This document shows positions 5,201 to 57,517 of a stretch of 64,000 nucleotides of DNA, piece after piece; position 1 is the stretch's first letter; every line of letters starts with the position of its first letter. Below the pieces are notes generated by a model, which was not told the origin of the DNA, did no database searches, and saw nothing but the letters and a program-made list of their open reading frames with translations. The stretch covers positions 1 through 64,000 of the forward strand of contig JAQBQD010000043.1 of assembly GCA_028287185.1 (NCBI GenBank), written 5' to 3'. A program made the translations under genes and the position numbers. This stretch comes from Gemmatimonadota bacterium. Its GTDB lineage: Bacteria > Gemmatimonadota > Gemmatimonadetes > Longimicrobiales > Longimicrobiaceae.

Positions 5201-7322
5201 CGGCACGGCCAAGTTCGACCTGTTCCTGGAGATGCACGAGCACGGCGGCGCGCTGCGTGGAGATTTGGAGTACGCGGCGGACCTGTGGGAGCCGGCGACG
5301 GCGGAGCGCATGGCCGCGCTGTACGTGCTCCTGCTGGAGGCGCTGGCGGACGACGCGGACCGTCCGCTCTCCGCGGCGCTTGCGGCGGCGGACGGGGCGG
5401 ATGCGCGCGCGGAGGCGGAGGCGTGGAACCGCACGGCGCGCGGCTATCCGCGCGAATCCACCATCCACGCGCGCTTCGCGGAGATCGCGGCGGAGCGGAC
5501 GGAGGCGGTGGCGCTGTCGTGGGACGGGGGGGAGATGACGTACGGGGAGCTGGACGCGCGTTCCAATCGCCTCGCCCACCACCTCGTCGGCAACGGTCTG
5601 CGGCCGGACCAGCCGGTTGCGGTGCTGCTGAACCGCTCGCCGGAGCTGGTCGTGGCGTTCCTGGCGGCGCTGAAGGCCGGGGGCGCGTACGTTCCCCTCA
5701 ACCCGCACTACCCCGCGGCCCGCACGGCGCTGATGCTGGACGACTGCCGCGCGCGCGTCCTCGTGACGGACCGCGCCTTCCTCGCCGACCTGCCGGCCGA
5801 TCGTCCGCCGACGGTGCTCGTGGACGACGCGGCGATCGATGCGGAATCGGCCGAGCCGACGTCCGTCGAGGTGCCCGCGGACGGCGCGGCCTACGTCATC
5901 TACACGTCGGGATCAACCGGGCGTCCGAAGGGCGTGGTGGTGCCCCACCGCGCGGTGCTGCGCCTGGTGCTGAACGCGGACTACGCGGAGCTCGGGGCGG
6001 GGGAGACGTGGCTGCAGATGGTGCCTGCGTCGTTCGACGTTTCGACGCTGGAGGTGTGGGTGCCGCTGCTGAACGGCGGGCGCAGCGCGATGTATCCGCC
6101 CGTGACGCCGGACCCGGCGGAGATCGGCGCGTTCATCCGCCGCCACGGGGTGACGTCGGCGTGGCTGACGTCGGCACTCTTCCACCAGGTGGTGGACCAG
6201 GACGTGGGCGCCTTCGCCCCGCTGCGGCAGCTGCTGTCGGGCGGTGACGTGGTGTCCGCGCCGCACGCCCGGCGCGTGCTGGACGCGTTCCCGGGCCTGC
6301 GGCTGATCAACGGCTACGGACCCACGGAGAACACGACGTTCTCCACCTGCCGTACCGTGACGCGCGACGACCTGGAGCGCGTCTCCATCCCCATCGGCGT
6401 GCCCGTGGCGAGCTCCACCGCGTACGTGCTGGACGAGCGCATGCGGCCGGTGCCGGCGTGCGTGCCCGGCGAGCTGTACGTGGGCGGCGACGGCGTGGCG
6501 CGTGGCTACCTGAACCAGCCCGCGCTCACCGCCGGGCGCTACGTGCCGGACCCGTTTGCCGCCACCCCCGGCGCGCGCCTCTATCGGACGGGAGACCGCG
6601 CGCGGCGGCGGGCGGACGGTGCGCTGGAGTTCCTGGGCCGCATCGACCAGCAGGTGAAGATCCGCGGCCACCGCACCGAGCCGGGCGAGCTGGAGGCGGT
6701 GCTGGAGCGGCATCCCTCCGTCGCGAGCGCCGTCGTCGTCGTGCGCGGGGACGCGGGGGGCGACCGGCGGCTGGCGGCGTACGTCGTTCCCGCGCGCACG
6801 GCCGACGCGCGCGATCTGCCGGCGCACCTGCGCGAGCACGTGCGCGGGGTGCTGCCGGAGCACATGGTGCCCGCGTCCGTGACGGTGATGGATGCGATCC
6901 CGCTGACGGCCAACGGCAAGGTGGACCGCCGCGCCCTGCCCGAGCCGGAGCCGCTTCGGCCGGACGAGGCGGACGGGACGGAGCCGTCGACCGAGACGGA
7001 GCGGCGGCTGGCCGGGATGTGGGGCGAGCTGCTGCGCGTGGAGCGGGTGTACGCGGACGACCACTTCTTCGCGCTGGGCGGGCACTCGCTGCTGGCGGCG
7101 CAGATGGCGGCGCGCGTGCGTGAGGAGCTCGGAGTCGGCCTGTCGCTGCCCGCCGTGCTGAAGGCGGGCACCGTGGCCGCGCTGGCCGCGGCCGTGGACG
7201 CGGAGGTCGCGGCCGTGCAGGCGGAGCTGGAAGCCGAGCTGGCGGGGCTGAGCGACGAGGAGGTTCGCGCGCTGCTGGAGGCGGAGGAGGCGTGGGACGG
7301 CTCCACGGTGAGGGGAGGCTGA
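2220..7322 (+). CDS. NRPS, modules 1-2 (A-T-C-A-T)
   Basis: Initiating non-ribosomal peptide synthetase of 1700 residues. It starts directly with an adenylation domain (about 20-515; A3 motif YTSGSTGRPKG, then YRTGDR and GKIDRRAL), a carrier domain (GGHSLLG, about 560-600), a condensation domain (about 615-1050; active site HHIAADG), a second A domain (about 1085-1575) and a second carrier (GGHSLLA, about 1610-1650). An acidic helical tail containing LSDEEVRALL follows and may dock to the next protein. There is no starter condensation or formylation domain, so the chain probably begins as a free amino acid. Pocket residues read by eye are D-M-E-L-I-G-C-V-W for module 1 (unassigned) and D-V-L-W-L-G-G-T-F for module 2 (close to Val). 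The start is GTG 2220; GTG 2175 is the longer alternative. The next gene begins seven bases after the stop, so the two are surely co-transcribed. Confidence 0.93.
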   Translation: MVGAETRVSASVVRPAATRWECAHQAFEANVVSAPDAEAVVVGERRATYAELDRHARAVAARLRALGVGPERRVVVLMEPGPAFAAALLGVLKAGGAYVPIDPEYPAERIAWVLEDSAAAAVLTHAEAAHRLPSTALPVVDVQTLDLALGDGFVAVDVDPDNLAYVIYTSGSTGRPKGVGVTHRSLVSLQRVAVELYGMTAGDRMGQLPSVGFDMSVEPIWSTWTAGAALHFRPRGVPALGPGFWRWVEAEGITILNPPTALWHAWVADMAASGVRVPASVRLLITGGEKPQGAALARWREIAPGVRWMNCYGPTEATVWATTWELPAGGWDGDPPIGTARANASVEVVGTDGEPAEEGEVCVGGVAVARGYLGRAALTAERFVPDPVSTEPGARMYRTGDRVRVRPDGALEFVGRVDEQVKVGGYRVEPGEVEAVLSEHPALAAAAVAARRGDDGAARLHGWAVEREGVSADPAALRAWLRERLPAYMVPSTLTMLDALPLNAHGKIDRRALPTSAVESADSAEILADAGETVRGVVEIFREVLAVAVGAEDDFFDAGGHSLLGMLVLSRVRQRWGVELPVRAVFEARTAAALAERIDASARTAGQPPLVRVPRYGALPLSFQQQGLWLVHQMERPGIAFYNIPLAVRLTGELDVDGLRRALGQVVRRHEALRTTFRSTAAGVEQVVNPASPAFPLPLSDLSALPYDAAEAQAQRIATAEASTAFDLSRDGVLRGRLVRIGRDEHLLLLTVHHIAADGWSIGVLFREMAALYEAFREGRPSPLPDLPVQYADFAAWQRGWLSDEVLAPQLAYWRARLADAPRVMELPTDRPRPTEGRHRGGMLRFSVPADLAARLRETARRHDATTFMVLLAAFDLLLHRLGGGDDLVVGSPVAGRARPETEGLIGFFINTVALRTDLGGDPTPAELIGRVREATLEAYAHQDLPFERVVEALHPDRAAGLNPVFQASFALGNVEMAPVDLPGVRVQPQDVHSGTAKFDLFLEMHEHGGALRGDLEYAADLWEPATAERMAALYVLLLEALADDADRPLSAALAAADGADARAEAEAWNRTARGYPRESTIHARFAEIAAERTEAVALSWDGGEMTYGELDARSNRLAHHLVGNGLRPDQPVAVLLNRSPELVVAFLAALKAGGAYVPLNPHYPAARTALMLDDCRARVLVTDRAFLADLPADRPPTVLVDDAAIDAESAEPTSVEVPADGAAYVIYTSGSTGRPKGVVVPHRAVLRLVLNADYAELGAGETWLQMVPASFDVSTLEVWVPLLNGGRSAMYPPVTPDPAEIGAFIRRHGVTSAWLTSALFHQVVDQDVGAFAPLRQLLSGGDVVSAPHARRVLDAFPGLRLINGYGPTENTTFSTCRTVTRDDLERVSIPIGVPVASSTAYVLDERMRPVPACVPGELYVGGDGVARGYLNQPALTAGRYVPDPFAATPGARLYRTGDRARRRADGALEFLGRIDQQVKIRGHRTEPGELEAVLERHPSVASAVVVVRGDAGGDRRLAAYVVPARTADARDLPAHLREHVRGVLPEHMVPASVTVMDAIPLTANGKVDRRALPEPEPLRPDEADGTEPSTETERRLAGMWGELLRVERVYADDHFFALGGHSLLAAQMAARVREELGVGLSLPAVLKAGTVAALAAAVDAEVAAVQAELEAELAGLSDEEVRALLEAEEAWDGSTVRGG

Positions 7323-7329
7323 GGCGGAG

Positions 7330-10300
7330 ATGACGGACGTCGCGAACCGCCCGCAGGATCTATCGCCGGAGCGCCGCCGGCTGCTGGAGCTGCGGATGCG
7401 CGCCCGGCAGGCGCAGGCCGCCGGCCCCGAGCTGCACCCCCGCGCCCGCCCGGACGGCACGGCGCCGCTCTCCGCCTCGCAGGCGCGGCTGTGGGTGCTG
7501 GACCGCATGGAGCCCGGCAACGGCGACTATTCGGCGTCGCTGCCCCTGCGCGTCCGCGGGCCGCTGGACGTGGACGCGCTCCGCCGCGCGCTGGAGACGG
7601 TGGTCGGGCGGCACGAGTCGCTGCGCACCACCTTCACCGAGCGCGACGGCGTGCCGGTGCAGGTGATCCATCCGCCGAAGCCCGTTCCGCTGGTCGCCGC
7701 CGATCTCTCCGCCCTGTCCGCGGACGGGCGCGAGGCGGAGGTGCGCCGGCGCGCGGACGTGGACGCGGGGACGGGGTTCGACCTGGAGGCGGGGCCCGTC
7801 TTCCGCGCCACGTTGCTGCGGCTGGGGGACGAGGACCACGCGTTGTTGCTGACGATGCACCACATCGTCACCGACGGGTGGAGCATGGGCGTGCTCGCGC
7901 GCGAGGTGGGCGAGGCCTACGCCGCCCACCGCGAGGGCCGCGCGCCCGAGCTGCCCCCGGTACCGGTGCAATACGCGGACTTCGCGGCGTGGGAGCACGA
8001 GCTGCTGCGCGGCGCGGAGCTGGAGCGGCTGGCGGCGTTCTGGCGCGAGGCGCTGGCGGGTGCGCCGCCGTCGCTCGACCTGCCGGCGGACCACCCGCGC
8101 CCGCCCCGCGCGAGTCGCGCGGGAGGCCTGGCGCACGCGCGGATCACGCCCGCGCTGGCGGAGCGGCTGCGGGCCTTCGCGCAGGGGCAGGACGCCACGC
8201 TCTTCCACGTGCTGATGGCGGCGTTCCGCGTCGTCCTCGCCCGCCACTCGGGGCAGGACGACGTGGTGATCGGCACGCCGCTGGCCAACCGGCCGCGGAG
8301 CGTGCTGGACGGGCTGATCGGCTTCTTCGTGAACACCGTTCCCCTGCGCGGCCGGGTGCGCGCGGACGCGACCTTCGCGGAGATGGTGCGGGCGGAGAAG
8401 CAGACGGCGTACGCGGCCGCGCAGCATGCGGGGCTGCCGTTCGACCGGATGGTGGAGGAGCTTCGCGTGACGCGCGACCCGGCGCGGAACCCGGTGTTCC
8501 AGGCGATGCTGGCCTTGCAGAACACGCGCACGGAGCCGCCGGCGCTGGCCGGCGCGGAGGTGACGCAGATCGACTCCGACGCCGGGGTCGCGCGCTTCGA
8601 GCTGACGCTGGACCACTGGCTGGACGCGGACGGCGGAATCGGCGTGCACGCCGAGTTCGCGCGCGAGGTGTTCGACGCCGCCACGGTGGATCGCATCCTC
8701 GACCACTTCGTCCATGTTCTGGAGCAGGGCTGCGCAACCCCGCACACCCGCCTCGCCGGGCTGCGCCATGCGCCGGACGCCGAGGTCGCGCAGGCGGAGG
8801 CGTGGGGGCGCGGCGCCGTCGACCTGCCGTGCACCGAGACGCTGCACGGGATGATCGCGGCGCAGGCGGCGCTCACGCCGGACGCCCCGGCACTGGCGTG
8901 GGACGGCGGATCGCTGACGTACGCGGAGATGGTGGCTCGCGCGGAGATCCTCGCGCGCCGGCTGCGGGGCATGGGGGTGGGCCCGGAGAGCGTCGTCGGG
9001 ATGATGCTTCCGTCGTCGCCCGAGGCCGTCGTCGCCATCCTGGGCATCCTGCGGGCGGGCGGCGCGTACCTGCCGCTCGATGCGGCGAATCCCCCGGCCC
9101 GCATCGCCCACGCGCTCGCGGACTCCCGCGCCGTGGCCGTCGTCGGCTATCCGGCCGGCGCGGCGCTCGCCTCCGATCTTCCGTTCGTCGCGATCACGGG
9201 CCTCGAATCGTTCGCCGGCATCGAAGAATCGACCGACTCGACCGACTCGGCGGACTCGGCAGACTCGGCAGACTCGGCAGACTCGGCAGACTCGGTTGGG
9301 CCGGGGGATGCGGAGGATGCACTGTCCGCCGAGGTCCGCGCGGAGAGCCTGGCGTACGTCATCTACACGTCCGGGTCGACGGGCACGCCGAAGGGCGTCG
9401 GGGTGGCGCACGGGCCGGCGGCGATGCATGCGCGGGCGGTGGCGCGGGAGTACCGGCTGCGCGCGGACGACCGGTGCCTGGGATTCGCGGCGCTGACCTT
9501 CGACGCGTCGGTGGAGCACATCTTCGGCACGTTCGCGGCGGGCGCGTGCCTGGTCCCACGGACGGAGGTGTGGGGGCCGGCGGAGCTGGCGCGGCACGTG
9601 GAGCGGCTGGGGATCACGGCCGCGCTGACCTCCACCGGCTACTGGACGCAGCTCACCCACGACGACGCCGTGCTGTCGTCGCTGCGCGGAAACTTGCGGC
9701 TGCTCTCCACGGGCGGCGAGGAGATGCGGGCGGACGCGGCGTGCGCGTGGTACGCCAGGCCCGGCGGCGCGCAGCTCGACAACGCTTACGGGCCCACGGA
9801 GGCGGTGGTCACCGCCGCGTTCTTCCGCGTGCCGCAGGACTTCGCCGCGTCGAACCCGGCGCGCGTTCCCGTCGGCGGGCCGATCTCCGGGCGCACGCTG
9901 CGGGTGCTGGATGACGCGCTGAACCCCGTCGGCATCGGCGTGCCGGGCGAGCTGTGCATCGGAGGGTTCGGCCTGGCGCGCGGGTACCTGGGGCGGCCGG
10001 CGCTGACGGCCGAGCGCTTCGTGCCCGACCCCGCTGGCGAGCCGGGGGCGCGGATGTACCGTACCGGGGACCGTGCCCGGTGGCGCGAGGACGGCCTGCT
10101 GGACTACCTGGGGCGCGCGGACGAGCAGGTGAAGGTGCGGGGCTACCGCATCGAGCTGGGCGAGGTGGAGGCCGCGCTCCGCACGCACTCCTCCGTCGTG
10201 GACTGCGCCGTGGCTGCGCGGCCGGACGCCTCCGGGACGCTGAACCTGGTCGCGTACGTCGTCCCTGGCGGCGGCGCGCTGCCCGATCCCGCGGAGCTGC

Positions 10301-26954: not shown

Positions 26955-44213
<17,259 letters not shown>

Positions 44214-49591: not shown

Positions 49592-50575
49592 TCAGTCCAC
49601 CGCCACGACGGGGATGTCGTTCTCGTCGCCCCAGCGCTGCCAGCCCGCGGACGTCCGCTCGCGGAAGAAGCCTTCGAGGCACGCGTGCGTCAGCTCGCCG
49701 CCGCACGCCGCGGAGAGGCGGGCGGCGAAGTGCGGCTCCAGCGCGGCGAGGGCGATCCAGCCGTCCGCCGAGCGGTACAGCCCGTACTGCGGAAGCCCGC
49801 CGCCCAGCAGGCCACCGGGCGCGGTGAGGCCGTGGCGGAGCGGGGCGGCGAAGTCGTGCGCGGCGGACGCGAGCGCCACCTCCGCGTACGAGCCGCGACC
49901 GGTGCGGTGGCGGCCGAGCAGCGCGGCGAGGCAGGCGCCGAATGCCTGTTCGGCGCCCGCCAGGTCGGCGAGCAGGGTGCGGGGAAGGGACGGCGGGTCG
50001 AGCAGCCCGGCGGCGGCGGCGTACGTCAGGTCGTGCCCCGCGCGGTCGCCGTCCGCACCGGACGAGCCGACGATGGCCACGTGGCAGAGGCGTGGGAAGC
50101 GGGCGTGGAGGCCCGCCCATTCCAGCCCCAGCCGCGCCAGCGCCGCCGGCCGCGTGGCGGTGACGAGCACGTCCGCCTCCGCCAGCAGCCGGCCCATCTC
50201 GTCGCGGGCGTCCGCCCGGTGCAGGTCCAGGCGGACGACGTGCTGCCCTTCCGCCAGCTCCTCATACCACGCGCGGGCGTAGGCGGCCAGCGGATCGCCG
50301 GAGGGCGGCTCCACCTTGTGGACGGCGGCGCCCAGCGTGCGCATCCGCGCCGCCATCACCGGCCCCGGCACGTTGAGCGCCAGGGTGACGACGCGCGTTC
50401 CCGCCAGCGGCGCCGCGTCCGCCGATTGCTTCGCCGAATCCGTCGAATCGTCCGAATCCGCCGAGCCGGCCGAGCCCGCCGAGCCCGCCGAGCCCGCCGA
50501 GCCCGCCGAATCCTCGCGATCGTCCGAAGCCGCAGCGGTGCCCGGAGCGGCGCCCGTCACGTTCCCTGGATCCAC
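49592..50575 (-). CDS. CaiB/BaiF-type (family III) CoA-transferase
   Basis: A protein of 327 residues. The N-terminal 55 or so are a low-complexity Ser-Ala-Gly/Asp linker made by a 9-base repeat. The family III CoA-transferase/alpha-methylacyl-CoA racemase core follows, with PLAGTRVVTLALNVPGPV, GAAVHKVEPPSGDPLAAY, and GHDLTYAAAAGLL containing the conserved Asp. The core of about 270 residues is short for the family, whose members are often 350-400. It could be a racemase-like short form. The start codon is GTG (50575, or GTG 50560 with AGGGA in front). It is the last gene of a three-gene operon with the NTF2-like and aminotransferase genes (gaps of 26 and 37 bases). Confidence 0.8.
   Translation of the reverse strand: MDPGNVTGAAPGTAAASDDREDSAGSAGSAGSAGSAGSADSDDSTDSAKQSADAAPLAGTRVVTLALNVPGPVMAARMRTLGAAVHKVEPPSGDPLAAYARAWYEELAEGQHVVRLDLHRADARDEMGRLLAEADVLVTATRPAALARLGLEWAGLHARFPRLCHVAIVGSSGADGDRAGHDLTYAAAAGLLDPPSLPRTLLADLAGAEQAFGACLAALLGRHRTGRGSYAEVALASAAHDFAAPLRHGLTAPGGLLGGGLPQYGLYRSADGWIALAALEPHFAARLSAACGGELTHACLEGFFRERTSAGWQRWGDENDIPVVAVD
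50436..50516 (-). repeat. 9-base tandem repeat (GGCTCGGCG type), 9 units
   Basis: Nine 9-base units. On the coding (minus) strand the centre is GGCTCGGCG, encoding Gly-Ser-Ala, flanked by Asp-Ser-Thr/Ala/Asp units that keep the GATTC core. It differs from the 9226-9297 unit (GACTCGGCA) at two bases and is read in the same frame. It lies in the N-terminal linker of the CoA-transferase. Confidence 0.93.
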
Positions 50576-53660: not shown

Positions 53661-54899
53661 TCAGAAGCCGTAGGACCATTGGACGGACAGGAGGTTGGCG
53701 CTGCCGACCCGGGGCTGGCCGCCGATGTTCCACAGGTACTCGGCGCGGAGCTGCGTGTTGCGGCCGGTGTGGAGGCCGGCGCCCAGCTCCACGCGCTCGT
53801 CGTAGTAGTCCCAGGGGATGCGGCTGGCGGCCGTTCCGCTGCCGTCGGGAATGCGGTTGAAGCGGATGGCGGCGTAGCGGGCCGCGGCGTAGGCGCGGGC
53901 GCCCAGCTTCACGCGGCTCTCCAGGTAGTACGACAGGTCGCGCGGGTCCTGCGGCATGTTCGGGACCTCCCAGCGGTCCACGAACACCTCGGCGTGCGTC
54001 TCCACGGGGCCGCTGGCGAGCGTGGCCTCGGCGCCCCACAGCTCCTGGTCGTAGTCGCCGAGCGCGTCGCCGTACGCGACGGGACCCTCCACCTTCGCGC
54101 GCAGGTAGGGGCCGCGGTCGTACGAGACGCCCAGGCGCAGCTCGGGCAGCACCTGCGCGGACAGGCCGGCCACCACGGAGGGATGCTGGGTGGCCGAGAC
54201 GTCCGGGTTCCACGAGGGCGGCGGGCTGGACGGCGCGCTGTTCATCACCGCCACGCGCGCCGCAACGCCGTGCAGCGAGCCGAACGCCATGGCCCCCGCC
54301 TGGTACGGCACGCCCCAGATCACGGGCGATCCGATCCCGCGGAACTCGTCCGGCTCGTCGCGCCAGGTGAGGAAGCCCCTTGCGGAGCCGGGCGCGATGC
54401 CGGCGCAGATCACCGTGCGGTACTCGTACGGCAGCGGCGGGCGGATGAACGGGTCCGCCGACGTGCCGTGGCGCTGGGCGTACGCGCCGAAGGGTGTGGC
54501 GAACTTGCCCGCCTGCACGCCGAAGTCCTTTCCCGCCCATGGCGTCCAGCGCGCGAACGCCTGCTCCAGCCGCGCCTGGACGGGACGCGGGGCCGGCTCT
54601 TCGCCGCGGTCCGCGCGGCCCTCCGCGAAGGCGTACAGGTGGCTGCCCAGGAACACGTCCGCGTAGAGGCTCAGGCGCGGCGCCACGAACGCGTCCGTCG
54701 TGGGGATCAGCCACGACGGGTAGTCCGCCGGCACGTATCCCGTCACGTCCAGCCGCCCGCTCGGCGCGATCTGCAGCCACCCGCCGGGCGACGAGTAGCG
54801 GACGCCCTTCTCCTGCAGCGTGGGAAGCTCCTGCGCCGCGCCGGCGCGGGGCACCACCGCCGCGAGCAGCAGCAGCGCCGCCGTCACCGACCCACGCAC
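53661..54899 (-). CDS. Alternative model: separate outer-membrane porin
   Basis: An internal GTG at 54899 would begin a 412-residue protein with an ideal signal peptide (VRGSVTAALLLLAAVVPRAG, cleavage after AGAA) and then a porin-like barrel. The barrel's alternating pattern includes GWLQIAPSGRLDVTGY, APRLSLYADVFLG and FGVQAGKFATPFGAY, and it ends in Phe, as outer-membrane barrels do. It resembles phosphate-selective or OprO/P-like porins. The GTG has only a weak GGGGCAG site. This model and the fused model share the same stop codon and exclude each other unless both forms are made. Confidence 0.5.
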   Translation of the reverse strand: MRGSVTAALLLLAAVVPRAGAAQELPTLQEKGVRYSSPGGWLQIAPSGRLDVTGYVPADYPSWLIPTTDAFVAPRLSLYADVFLGSHLYAFAEGRADRGEEPAPRPVQARLEQAFARWTPWAGKDFGVQAGKFATPFGAYAQRHGTSADPFIRPPLPYEYRTVICAGIAPGSARGFLTWRDEPDEFRGIGSPVIWGVPYQAGAMAFGSLHGVAARVAVMNSAPSSPPPSWNPDVSATQHPSVVAGLSAQVLPELRLGVSYDRGPYLRAKVEGPVAYGDALGDYDQELWGAEATLASGPVETHAEVFVDRWEVPNMPQDPRDLSYYLESRVKLGARAYAAARYAAIRFNRIPDGSGTAASRIPWDYYDERVELGAGLHTGRNTQLRAEYLWNIGGQPRVGSANLLSVQWSYGF

Positions 54900-56846
54900 C
54901 CCCGACTGCCCCGCGGGACCCGATCTCGCAGCCACGGGTGATCTGGAATCCTTCGCGTCGGTCGATTCGCTCGCTTCCTTCGGCCCGACTGATTCCGGAG
55001 CGTCCGCAGAAGCCGCGCAATCCGCGCAATCCGCGGAATCCGCGGAATCCGCGGAATCCGTCGAATCCACCGGGTCCGTCGAGGTCGATGCGCCGTGGAC
55101 GTGGGACGGCTTCGCGTCTTCGAGCGGTTCGGGATCGCGGAGCGATTCGACGCAGAAGACCTCGACCGGCACGGACAGGCCCTTGAGCTGGCGCGTGCCG
55201 CCGTGGGCCAGGCGGAAGGCGTCGCCCAGGCGCCGGCGGGTCGCTTCGGAGATGAGGATCTCGTCGGCGGCGGCGACGGAGCAGAGGCGGGCGGCCACAT
55301 TCACGGACTCGCCGAGGACGGTGTAGTTCAGCCGCTCGGGCGATCCCACGAAGCCGGCGACGGCGGTGCCGGTGTTGATGCCGATGCCCACGCGGAACTC
55401 GGGCTCGCCGCGCGCCGCCCGCTGTGCCGACAGCTCGGCGACCGCGGCCTGGATGCGGAGCGCCGCTCGCGCGGCCCGGACGGCGTCCTCGCCGCGCGCC
55501 ATGGGGGCGCCGAACAGGGCCATGATCTGGTCGCCCAGGTACTTGTCCACCAGCCCGCCCTCGCCCGACACCGCCGCGCCGGCGCGCTCCAGGAAGCCGT
55601 TCACGATGGCGATCACCTCCTGCGGCTCCATCCCCTCCGTGAGCGTCGTGAACCCGCGGATGTCGGCGTACAGGATGGTGACCTCGCGGTTCTGGCCGCC
55701 GGGCGCGATGTCGGTGCCCTTCACCAGCTCGGCGGCGATCTCGGGCGAGTTGGTCTTCACCAGCGCGGCCTGGTAGCGGTCCTTCAGCATCAGGTCGTGC
55801 GTCATCTCGTTGAAGCCCTCGGACAGCGCCCCCAGCTCGTCGTCCTCCTCCACCGGCACGCGCGCCGAGTAGTCGCCCGCCCGCACCCGCACCGTCGCGG
55901 CCGAGAGCGCCTGCACGGGCCGCGTGAGGCGGTTCGACAGCGCCGCGCCCAGGGCCAGGGCCCCCAGCAGCGCCAGCAGCCCGGTGGAGAAGGACACCAC
56001 CGCCAGCCGCCGGAAGGGCGAGATCACGTCGTCCAGCGGCACGGCCAGCACCCACCACACGGGCGTCGCCGAGTCGATGGAGACGGGGTTGGCCACCAGC
56101 GAGTAGGCGTGCCCACCCCAGGTCACGCGCTCGCCCGAGCGGTGGCCCGCCATGCCGGCCATCTGCCCCAGCGCGGGCGCCTCCGCGATCCCCGCCGTCC
56201 GCGCCACGCACCGGCTGCCGGCCACGAAGCAGACGTCCGCGCCGATGCCCTCGCCCAGCTGCTGCGCCACGGCGTCGTCCACCGGCAGGCCCACCGTCAG
56301 CGTGCCCGTGAACTGGGCGCCCGAGAACAGGGGCACGGGGTGGACGAAGAAGAGCCGGCCGCTCACGAAGTGGTAGCCGAACGCCGCGGTGTCGCCGCGC
56401 TCCAGCAGGCGCCGCACGAGGCGCGCGGGCACGGCGGGCCGGGGGTCGCGCAGCGACCGCGCGTCCAGCAGCGCGGCGACGGGGGCCCCGTCCTGACCCG
56501 TGAAGACCAGCAGCGAGTGCGGCGCCGCGGCCAGCTTCAGCTCGTATTCGGCGGTGCCCGGAAGGTCGCCCGCGTCGCCGCTCTGCACCGCCGCATCCAC
56601 CGCGGCGGCGAATCGGCCGTTGGAGCCCAGGCGCAGGCCCAGCGTGCGCAGCTCGGCCTGCTGCCGGCGCTCCTGCCCCGCGAACGCCCTGCGCGAGCGG
56701 GCCAGGGTATCGTCCACCACCCGGCTCACCTGGCGCGTGGCGACGATCCCGATGACCACCAGCATCACCAGGAAGAAGCCGCCCACCAGGACGAGCAGGT
56801 CGCGGAAGATCCGCGCGCGGAAGGTGCGGGGACGCAGCAGGGTCAC
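53661..56846 (-). CDS. Class III nucleotide cyclase running in frame into an outer-membrane porin
   Basis: One uninterrupted frame of 1061 residues. The N-terminal part is a membrane receptor: TM1 (about 15-36), an extracytoplasmic sensor (about 40-280), TM2 (about 283-305) and a HAMP region. A class III cyclase domain follows (about 385-560), with metal Asp motifs in LYADIRGFTTL and LVDKYLGDQIMALFG, then NYTVLGESVNVAARL. The Lys is that of adenylyl cyclases, but Glu replaces the usual substrate-selecting Asp/Thr, so ATP specificity is not certain. After a Ser-Asp-Ala 9-base repeat (about 590-611) comes a signal-peptide-like segment (about 650-673) and a beta-barrel of about 390 residues ending in aromatic QWSYGF. 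A cytoplasmic cyclase and an outer-membrane barrel cannot easily share one chain, so this is either a true fusion or two genes whose junction stays open. Start GTG 56846 lies 14 bases after the cupredoxin stop. Confidence 0.75.
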   Translation of the reverse strand: MTLLRPRTFRARIFRDLLVLVGGFFLVMLVVIGIVATRQVSRVVDDTLARSRRAFAGQERRQQAELRTLGLRLGSNGRFAAAVDAAVQSGDAGDLPGTAEYELKLAAAPHSLLVFTGQDGAPVAALLDARSLRDPRPAVPARLVRRLLERGDTAAFGYHFVSGRLFFVHPVPLFSGAQFTGTLTVGLPVDDAVAQQLGEGIGADVCFVAGSRCVARTAGIAEAPALGQMAGMAGHRSGERVTWGGHAYSLVANPVSIDSATPVWWVLAVPLDDVISPFRRLAVVSFSTGLLALLGALALGAALSNRLTRPVQALSAATVRVRAGDYSARVPVEEDDELGALSEGFNEMTHDLMLKDRYQAALVKTNSPEIAAELVKGTDIAPGGQNREVTILYADIRGFTTLTEGMEPQEVIAIVNGFLERAGAAVSGEGGLVDKYLGDQIMALFGAPMARGEDAVRAARAALRIQAAVAELSAQRAARGEPEFRVGIGINTGTAVAGFVGSPERLNYTVLGESVNVAARLCSVAAADEILISEATRRRLGDAFRLAHGGTRQLKGLSVPVEVFCVESLRDPEPLEDAKPSHVHGASTSTDPVDSTDSADSADSADCADCAASADAPESVGPKEASESTDAKDSRSPVAARSGPAGQSGVRGSVTAALLLLAAVVPRAGAAQELPTLQEKGVRYSSPGGWLQIAPSGRLDVTGYVPADYPSWLIPTTDAFVAPRLSLYADVFLGSHLYAFAEGRADRGEEPAPRPVQARLEQAFARWTPWAGKDFGVQAGKFATPFGAYAQRHGTSADPFIRPPLPYEYRTVICAGIAPGSARGFLTWRDEPDEFRGIGSPVIWGVPYQAGAMAFGSLHGVAARVAVMNSAPSSPPPSWNPDVSATQHPSVVAGLSAQVLPELRLGVSYDRGPYLRAKVEGPVAYGDALGDYDQELWGAEATLASGPVETHAEVFVDRWEVPNMPQDPRDLSYYLESRVKLGARAYAAARYAAIRFNRIPDGSGTAASRIPWDYYDERVELGAGLHTGRNTQLRAEYLWNIGGQPRVGSANLLSVQWSYGF
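55015..55077 (-). repeat. 9-base tandem repeat (GATTCCGCG type), 7 units
   Basis: Seven 9-base units. On the coding (minus) strand the core is GATTCCGCG, encoding Asp-Ser-Ala, with Asp-Cys-Ala and Asp-Ser-Thr variants. It falls exactly in the linker between the cyclase domain and the porin signal peptide. Because the units are multiples of three, they keep the two halves in one frame. Confidence 0.93.
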
Positions 56847-56860
56847 GGGATGCCGCCCGC

Positions 56861-57517
56861 CTACAGCCGCACGTCCACGCGCGCCGTTCCGCCGGCGGGC
56901 ACCGTCACGTCCACGGTGCGCTTGCCGCGGTCGAAGTCCCACACCGACAGGCGCCAGCGCCCCGCGGGCACATCCTCCAGCCGGAACGTCCCGTCGGCCC
57001 TCACCTGCGCGTGGTAGGGGTTCTCCACCACCACCACGCCCGAGCGCATCCAGCGGTGGATCTCGCAGAACACCTTCACGGTGCCCGGCCGGTCGAACGT
57101 CACCGGGCGCGACTCGCCGCGCGGAAAGCGACCCAGGTCGAAGCGCTTGGGGGTGGAGTACGAGAAGACGTTGTGGAAGAAGGGATCCTGGTTGGTGAAG
57201 TCCACCGTGGTGCCCACCGGCACCACCACCATCCCGGGCACGAAGCTGGTGTCGTGCTGCGCCAGGCGCGGGTGCCGCGGCAGGGCCGACGGGCGCGCGC
57301 CGCCCATGGCCCCTTCGAGGAACGCGACCATGGGCACCGGGGCCGTGGTGCGCGTGGCGACGCCCAGCCCCGCGTAGGGATTGGCGACGCGCTGCGGCGG
57401 ACGCGGCGTCACGATCGCGCGCCCCTCGATGGTGCCGGACGCGGCGCGCGTGCCGCCGGCCAGCAGCGGCACGAGCAGCAGGACGGGCGCGAGCACGGCG
57501 ACGAACCGTCGGTTCAC
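56861..57517 (-). CDS. Exported cupredoxin-like protein
   Basis: A 218-residue protein with a signal peptide (RRFVAVLAPVLLLVPLLAGG, cleavage near RAA) and a cupredoxin fold. Likely type 1 copper ligands are His in DPFFHNVFSY and Cys, His and Met in VFCEIHRWM. The C-terminal 60 residues (ADGTFRLEDVPAGRWRLSV) resemble a carboxypeptidase-regulatory-like beta sandwich. It probably carries electrons or copper in the periplasm. Start GTG 57517 is chosen for the AGGAG eight bases upstream; ATGs further out lack a site. It is the first gene of an operon with the cyclase-porin frame 14 bases downstream, which suggests a shared envelope role. Confidence 0.82.
   Translation of the reverse strand: MNRRFVAVLAPVLLLVPLLAGGTRAASGTIEGRAIVTPRPPQRVANPYAGLGVATRTTAPVPMVAFLEGAMGGARPSALPRHPRLAQHDTSFVPGMVVVPVGTTVDFTNQDPFFHNVFSYSTPKRFDLGRFPRGESRPVTFDRPGTVKVFCEIHRWMRSGVVVVENPYHAQVRADGTFRLEDVPAGRWRLSVWDFDRGKRTVDVTVPAGGTARVDVRL

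Follow-up and report, generated by a model that had tools for sequence, protein, structure and literature searches.

A receptor-type nucleotide cyclase and a predicted outer-membrane porin share one conserved frame in Gemmatimonadota and may form a polyprotein cut at an internal signal peptide

To our knowledge, polyproteins are rare in bacteria, and we know of none that sends its halves to two different membranes. The cytochrome b/c1 polyprotein of Bradyrhizobium, encoded by fbcH, reportedly contains a signal peptide within the chain, at which signal peptidase cuts it. The gene described here would resemble fbcH in giving two membrane-associated products from one gene through a cut at an internal signal peptide. 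However, both fbcH products stay in one inner-membrane complex, whereas here one half is a signalling receptor and the second is proposed to reach the outer membrane. Another comparison is with class III receptor adenylate cyclases. Our gene shares their TM-sensor-TM-HAMP-catalytic layout and all six catalytic and specificity residues, but they lack the in-frame signal peptide and porin found here. A literature search of open-access papers gave no description of a receptor-porin polyprotein, or of a cyclase-porin or kinase-porin fusion. By analogy with fbcH the mechanism has a precedent, and the receptor-porin version appears to be new.

The window, that is, the whole 64,000-nucleotide stretch of DNA that was analyzed, contains a single stop-free frame on the minus strand (53661-56846; all parts of the gene below are on this strand) with a GTG start, 1061 codons for amino acids and a stop codon at 53661-53663. 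The order of its domains is a transmembrane helix, a dCache-like sensor, a second transmembrane helix, HAMP, a class III cyclase, a linker, a signal-peptide-like helix, and a 16-strand porin. The initial annotation had described a cyclase running without a stop into a signal-peptide-like segment and a porin, and the open frame, the Pfam matches, and the AF2 and Foldseek results agree with it.

The first transmembrane helix (residues ~17-36; 56739-56798) was recognized in the sequence, is a helix in the AF2 model, and aligns with hydrophobic residues in relatives. The predicted periplasmic sensor (residues ~39-280; 56007-56732) is dCache_3-like according to AF2, Foldseek, and profile matches to dCache_3 receptors. 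Its pLDDT is mostly 70-89, and Foldseek matched it to a chemoreceptor model and to the PctD ligand-binding domain; the full-length model likewise retrieved the chemoreceptor model as well as porins. Confidence in the AF2 models is modest (mean pLDDT of 54.6 for the porin model and 51.8 for the full length, from five-row alignments), and the cyclase and the joint are poorly predicted in the full-length one, so that our conclusions use the sensor and the barrel only. The second transmembrane helix (residues ~282-303; 55938-56003) is seen in the sequence and its hydrophobicity is conserved in relatives. It leads into HAMP (residues 303-352; 55791-55940; PF00672, E 5e-13) and the class III nucleotide cyclase domain (residues 387-564; 55155-55688; PF00211, Guanylate_cyc, E 5e-24). 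D395, K435, D439, T509, N516, and R520 are all present, and identical in the 18 sequences compared. Judged by these residues, the cyclase half has the two metal-binding Asp, the transition-state Asn and Arg, and the substrate-specifying Lys and Thr/Asp of class III enzymes; the K435/T509 pair presumably indicates ATP as the substrate.

The C-terminal ~390 residues were modeled by AF2 as a helix followed by 16 strands. The predicted mature porin (residues 672-1061; 53664-54833) ends in Phe, which is found at the C-terminus of 14 of 15 aligned porins. A C-terminal Phe is a signal for the BAM machinery, and its conservation fits BAM assembly. Among solved structures, the best Foldseek matches of the porin model were OmpF/OmpC-type porins (E 4.6e-12, TM 0.56). 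No Pfam family matched this half above threshold, the best being PF07396 (Porin_O_P, E 0.075), and searches of Pfam, NCBIfam, and PDB gave no significant sequence match that would place it in a named porin family. The model therefore has the predicted 16-strand fold and C-terminal Phe of the general porins OmpF/OmpC and of OprP/Porin_O_P, but without significant sequence similarity to these families. With a signal peptide, an even number of amphipathic strands, and a C-terminal aromatic residue, it is a putative outer-membrane beta-barrel porin. The separate porins of L052, L079, L081, L119, and L120 have, near the first strands, an inserted segment with a c-type haem motif (CxxCH); the fused porins lack it.

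A cyclase and a porin in one frame were found in 14 genomes, the window's and 13 others, at ~40-50% identity (G016 or L072, G018, G010, G043 or L038, G412 or L039, L040, G168, G271, G323, G213, G304, G423, and G421). Most of the genomes compared are drafts, and L040 is a MAG filed at NCBI as 'Acidobacteria'. In a whole-genome search, the joined frame turned up in four genomes from the same order, with 44-53% identity in each half. The genome contigs gave no match to a single porin sequence, and four loci were recovered with an alignment. Between the two domain matches the relatives have 18-99 residues. The fused gene set is found in soil and groundwater Gemmatimonadota. In L121 (G421), one stop codon at 5979-5981 breaks the cyclase half, and the cyclase-porin joint is otherwise intact. 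The L039 locus holds both output types: two genes ahead of its cyclase-porin gene, and on the same strand as that gene, is a kinase-REC paralogue with the same sensor domain (772-2991).

Two other genes join a histidine kinase to the porin. In L088 (G274), a sensor-HisKA-HATPase-REC protein is joined to the homologous porin, and in L115 (G407) the porin follows a sensor-HAMP-kinase. Genomes close to them (G170, G202, and G383; G192) have the kinase and the porin as separate, adjacent, and often overlapping genes. In the porin tree, each kinase fusion sits inside separate kinase-porin genes, and the separate cyclase-type porins (G411; G422/G425 with G378, G339, and G393) fall among the fused ones. 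In the cyclase tree, rooted at the midpoint, the separate cyclases of G422/G425 are sister to the fused G323/G423. These placements indicate at least three origins of fusion, with the two kinase-porin fusions having arisen independently. Since the separate forms nest within the fused ones in both trees, fusion looks ancestral in the cyclase lineage and the separate genes look like later splits. The initial annotation had called for a comparison with relatives, in which plainly separate genes with a conserved porin start would have counted against it; relatives with separate genes exist, but in the trees they nest inside the fused ones. In L119 (2593-5827) and L120 (649-3987), the fused gene has been rearranged into convergent, tail-to-tail cyclase and porin genes with only a few bases between them. 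L132 (4591-5388; G248) encodes a chimera in which the N-terminal part of the cupredoxin is joined to the C-terminal ~115 residues of the porin, and it looks like the remnant of a receptor deletion.

The two halves are connected by an Asp/Ser/Ala-rich linker (residues 569-650; 54897-55142) that is longer than in most relatives; ahead of the helix, the linkers of the fused chains range from about 0 to 80 residues. Next comes the signal-peptide-like helix RGSVTAALLLLAAVVPRAGAA (residues 651-671; 54834-54896), which is helix 2-19 of the porin model. Cleavage is predicted at 671|672 (A|Q). All 16 fused chains (14 cyclase, 2 kinase) have a hydrophobic stretch and then x-x-A|Q within 17-24 residues, in a scan that sought A-Q and with the call based on the -3/-1 rule and conservation. 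The residues at -3 are small or aliphatic. This pattern, an h-region followed by small, conserved -3 and -1 residues, is that expected of a signal peptidase I substrate. A similar site is found in solo porins, where the signal peptide is an ordinary N-terminal one. Two separate cyclases stop just past the catalytic domain, without the helix.

The sequence around this site changes fast. In the closely related pair G016 and G018, the joint is only 27% identical, with a dN/dS of about 1.5, against 81-88% identity and a dN/dS of 0.24-0.35 for the cyclase, sensor, and porin; in two other pairs the dN/dS of the joint was 0.59 and 0.28. With the site kept in such a segment, little seems to be held except the frame, the hydrophobicity, and the cut site. 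The positive charges before the helix (n-region) were lost in L039, L072, and L073, as expected if the membrane part of the upstream receptor sets the topology. A cut at the internal signal peptide had been offered in the initial annotation as one of two explanations, and the 16 conserved sites in a fast-changing segment argue for it.

We propose, with a probability of roughly three in four, that the product of the gene is an obligate polyprotein, which signal peptidase I splits to give an adenylate cyclase bound to the membrane and a BAM-assembled porin. The chain would insert in the inner membrane as an ordinary receptor, with TM1, a periplasmic dCache-like sensor, TM2, HAMP, and a cytoplasmic adenylate cyclase. 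The third hydrophobic helix would derive from the signal peptide that the porin had ancestrally, and would take the downstream chain back out via Sec. Because the cyclase must be cytoplasmic, this helix should have its N-terminus inside and its C-terminus outside, as a signal peptide does. Signal peptidase I would then cut behind the A-x-A-type site, at A671|Q672. The cyclase half would remain in the inner membrane, where the used signal peptide might serve as an additional anchor, and the freed porin would reach the outer membrane by the BAM route, so that one receptor would be made per porin.

The single open frame would also accommodate an uncut chain, with the helix as a plain anchor and an inner-membrane cyclase covalently tied to an outer-membrane porin. 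We consider this very improbable. In the porin model ~19 residues lie between the predicted cut and strand 1; such a segment would reach no further than ~7 nm, which is not enough to cross a periplasm of usual width, so an uncut chain could not put the barrel in the outer membrane, and an A|Q shared by every fused chain would have no reason in a plain anchor. The orientation of the helix, this short span, and the terminal Phe together make the cut polyprotein the best reading. It is less far-fetched, but still unlikely, that most of the porin comes from translation beginning at an internal start, that it uses a signal peptide of its own, and that the long frame is merely stop-free. Several fused genes, the window's included, hold a GTG, ATG, or TTG ahead of the helix that the porin could use, and the two candidates in the window (54887-54899, minus strand) have anti-SD energies of -5.0 (weak) for GTG 54899 and -12.2 (strong) for GTG 54887. 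However, 32% of all the internal start codons in the genomes compared pair as well as -5, and the positions are not conserved in relatives, for which reason a conserved internal start with a Shine-Dalgarno sequence was discarded. L039, L072, and L073 have no ATG, GTG, or TTG at which translation of a separate porin could begin, leaving the downstream product there without a translation start of its own, and in L038 the nearest candidate lies within the cyclase domain. Ribosomes completing the cyclase would, moreover, make the fused chain anyway. In the window genome, where both codons are available, GTG 54899 or GTG 54887 may be an extra source of porin.

According to the initial annotation, the joint was precisely one of the 9-base repeat arrays, and the other of its two explanations was that the repeat had read through a former cyclase stop and intergenic gap while the porin was still started at GTG 54899. 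There is indeed an array of 7.3 copies inside the linker (55003-55068, minus strand), read as D-S-A type tripeptides, but none was present in the joints of relatives that we inspected, and these are still fused, including in other genera and families; a read-through caused by the minisatellite was thus rejected. Open frames are also cheap at this GC content: by shuffling, the window linker alone had a probability of 0.13-0.30 of being open, so one open GC-rich joint would be unremarkable by itself. Chance was plausible for one window and was ruled out by the same joined frame in the 13 other genomes, which also refute the idea that two genes, separate in the normal state, were joined by a recent repeat accident or by an error of assembly, an explanation that we regard as practically excluded. 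The pattern GANTCNGCN forms arrays at six sites of the window's genome (none with the reversed pattern as a control), and this dispersed family is found in the window and on contigs C12, C60, C66, and C157. Elsewhere in the window, arrays lie in frame in an NRPS (9235-9295, D-S-A repeats), in frame in a 5752-codon frame (36495-36558, E-S-x repeats), and between two predicted genes (50432-50513). With the fused gene, three giant or fused frames of the window have D/E-S-x tripeptide linkers encoded by 9-bp arrays, and the presence of such linkers inside the two giant coding frames is another argument against an accident. The array in the fused gene gives a flexible D-S-A linker and lengthened a linker that already existed, rather than creating the joint.

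The cut polyprotein could have a further role, in which the joint acts as a signalling device: cutting or export of the porin tail would be coupled to cyclase activity, and a porin stuck at the inner membrane would alter cAMP and so report on outer-membrane assembly. The independent histidine kinase-porin fusions would fit a selective advantage of such a device, which we put forward as a long shot.

The adjacent gene (56861-57517, minus strand) encodes a secreted protein with a cupredoxin and a CarboxypepD_reg-like domain, and the cupredoxin keeps its ligands His and Cys-x-x-His-x-x-Met. Nearly all related loci of sufficient length, of both cyclase and kinase types, have next to the receptor or the porin a gene for such a secreted cupredoxin-like protein, with its copper ligands conserved. 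In L040 and L121 this neighbor is hidden by contig ends, and it is absent from three solo-porin loci. Judging from gene content, the cyclase-porin and cupredoxin genes belong to a conserved cupredoxin-receptor-porin module, the ligand of which might, as a guess, be copper or a redox-active compound. Plasmids of Pseudomonadota (Caballeronia, Comamonas, and Novosphingobium) carry the same cupredoxin-like partner ('methylamine utilization') with a related dCache_3-HAMP receptor (E 3e-24 between our sensor and that of the Caballeronia plasmid receptor), in the same cupredoxin-receptor gene order. Unlike the cyclase here, the output of these receptors is GGDEF-EAL, and their possible outer-membrane partner, DUF3034, is a separate gene found in some of them only. 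DUF3034 had no significant match to the window porin family and was discarded as a homologue for that reason; the plasmids gave no match to the G065 porin either. In the plasmid loci L208 and L209, the cupredoxin and GGDEF-EAL receptor genes adjoin genes for DUF3034 and a truncated haemoglobin.

If the proposed reading is true, signal peptidase acts as a polyprotein protease in these bacteria, and a single chain yields both a receptor and a pore. Annotation by the cyclase domain alone would conceal the porin half. The gene would belong to an apparently unnamed cupredoxin-receptor-porin module that extends across a phylum and has interchangeable outputs (kinase and cyclase, and GGDEF-EAL with a different partner in Pseudomonadota), and the ligand of this module becomes a testable question.
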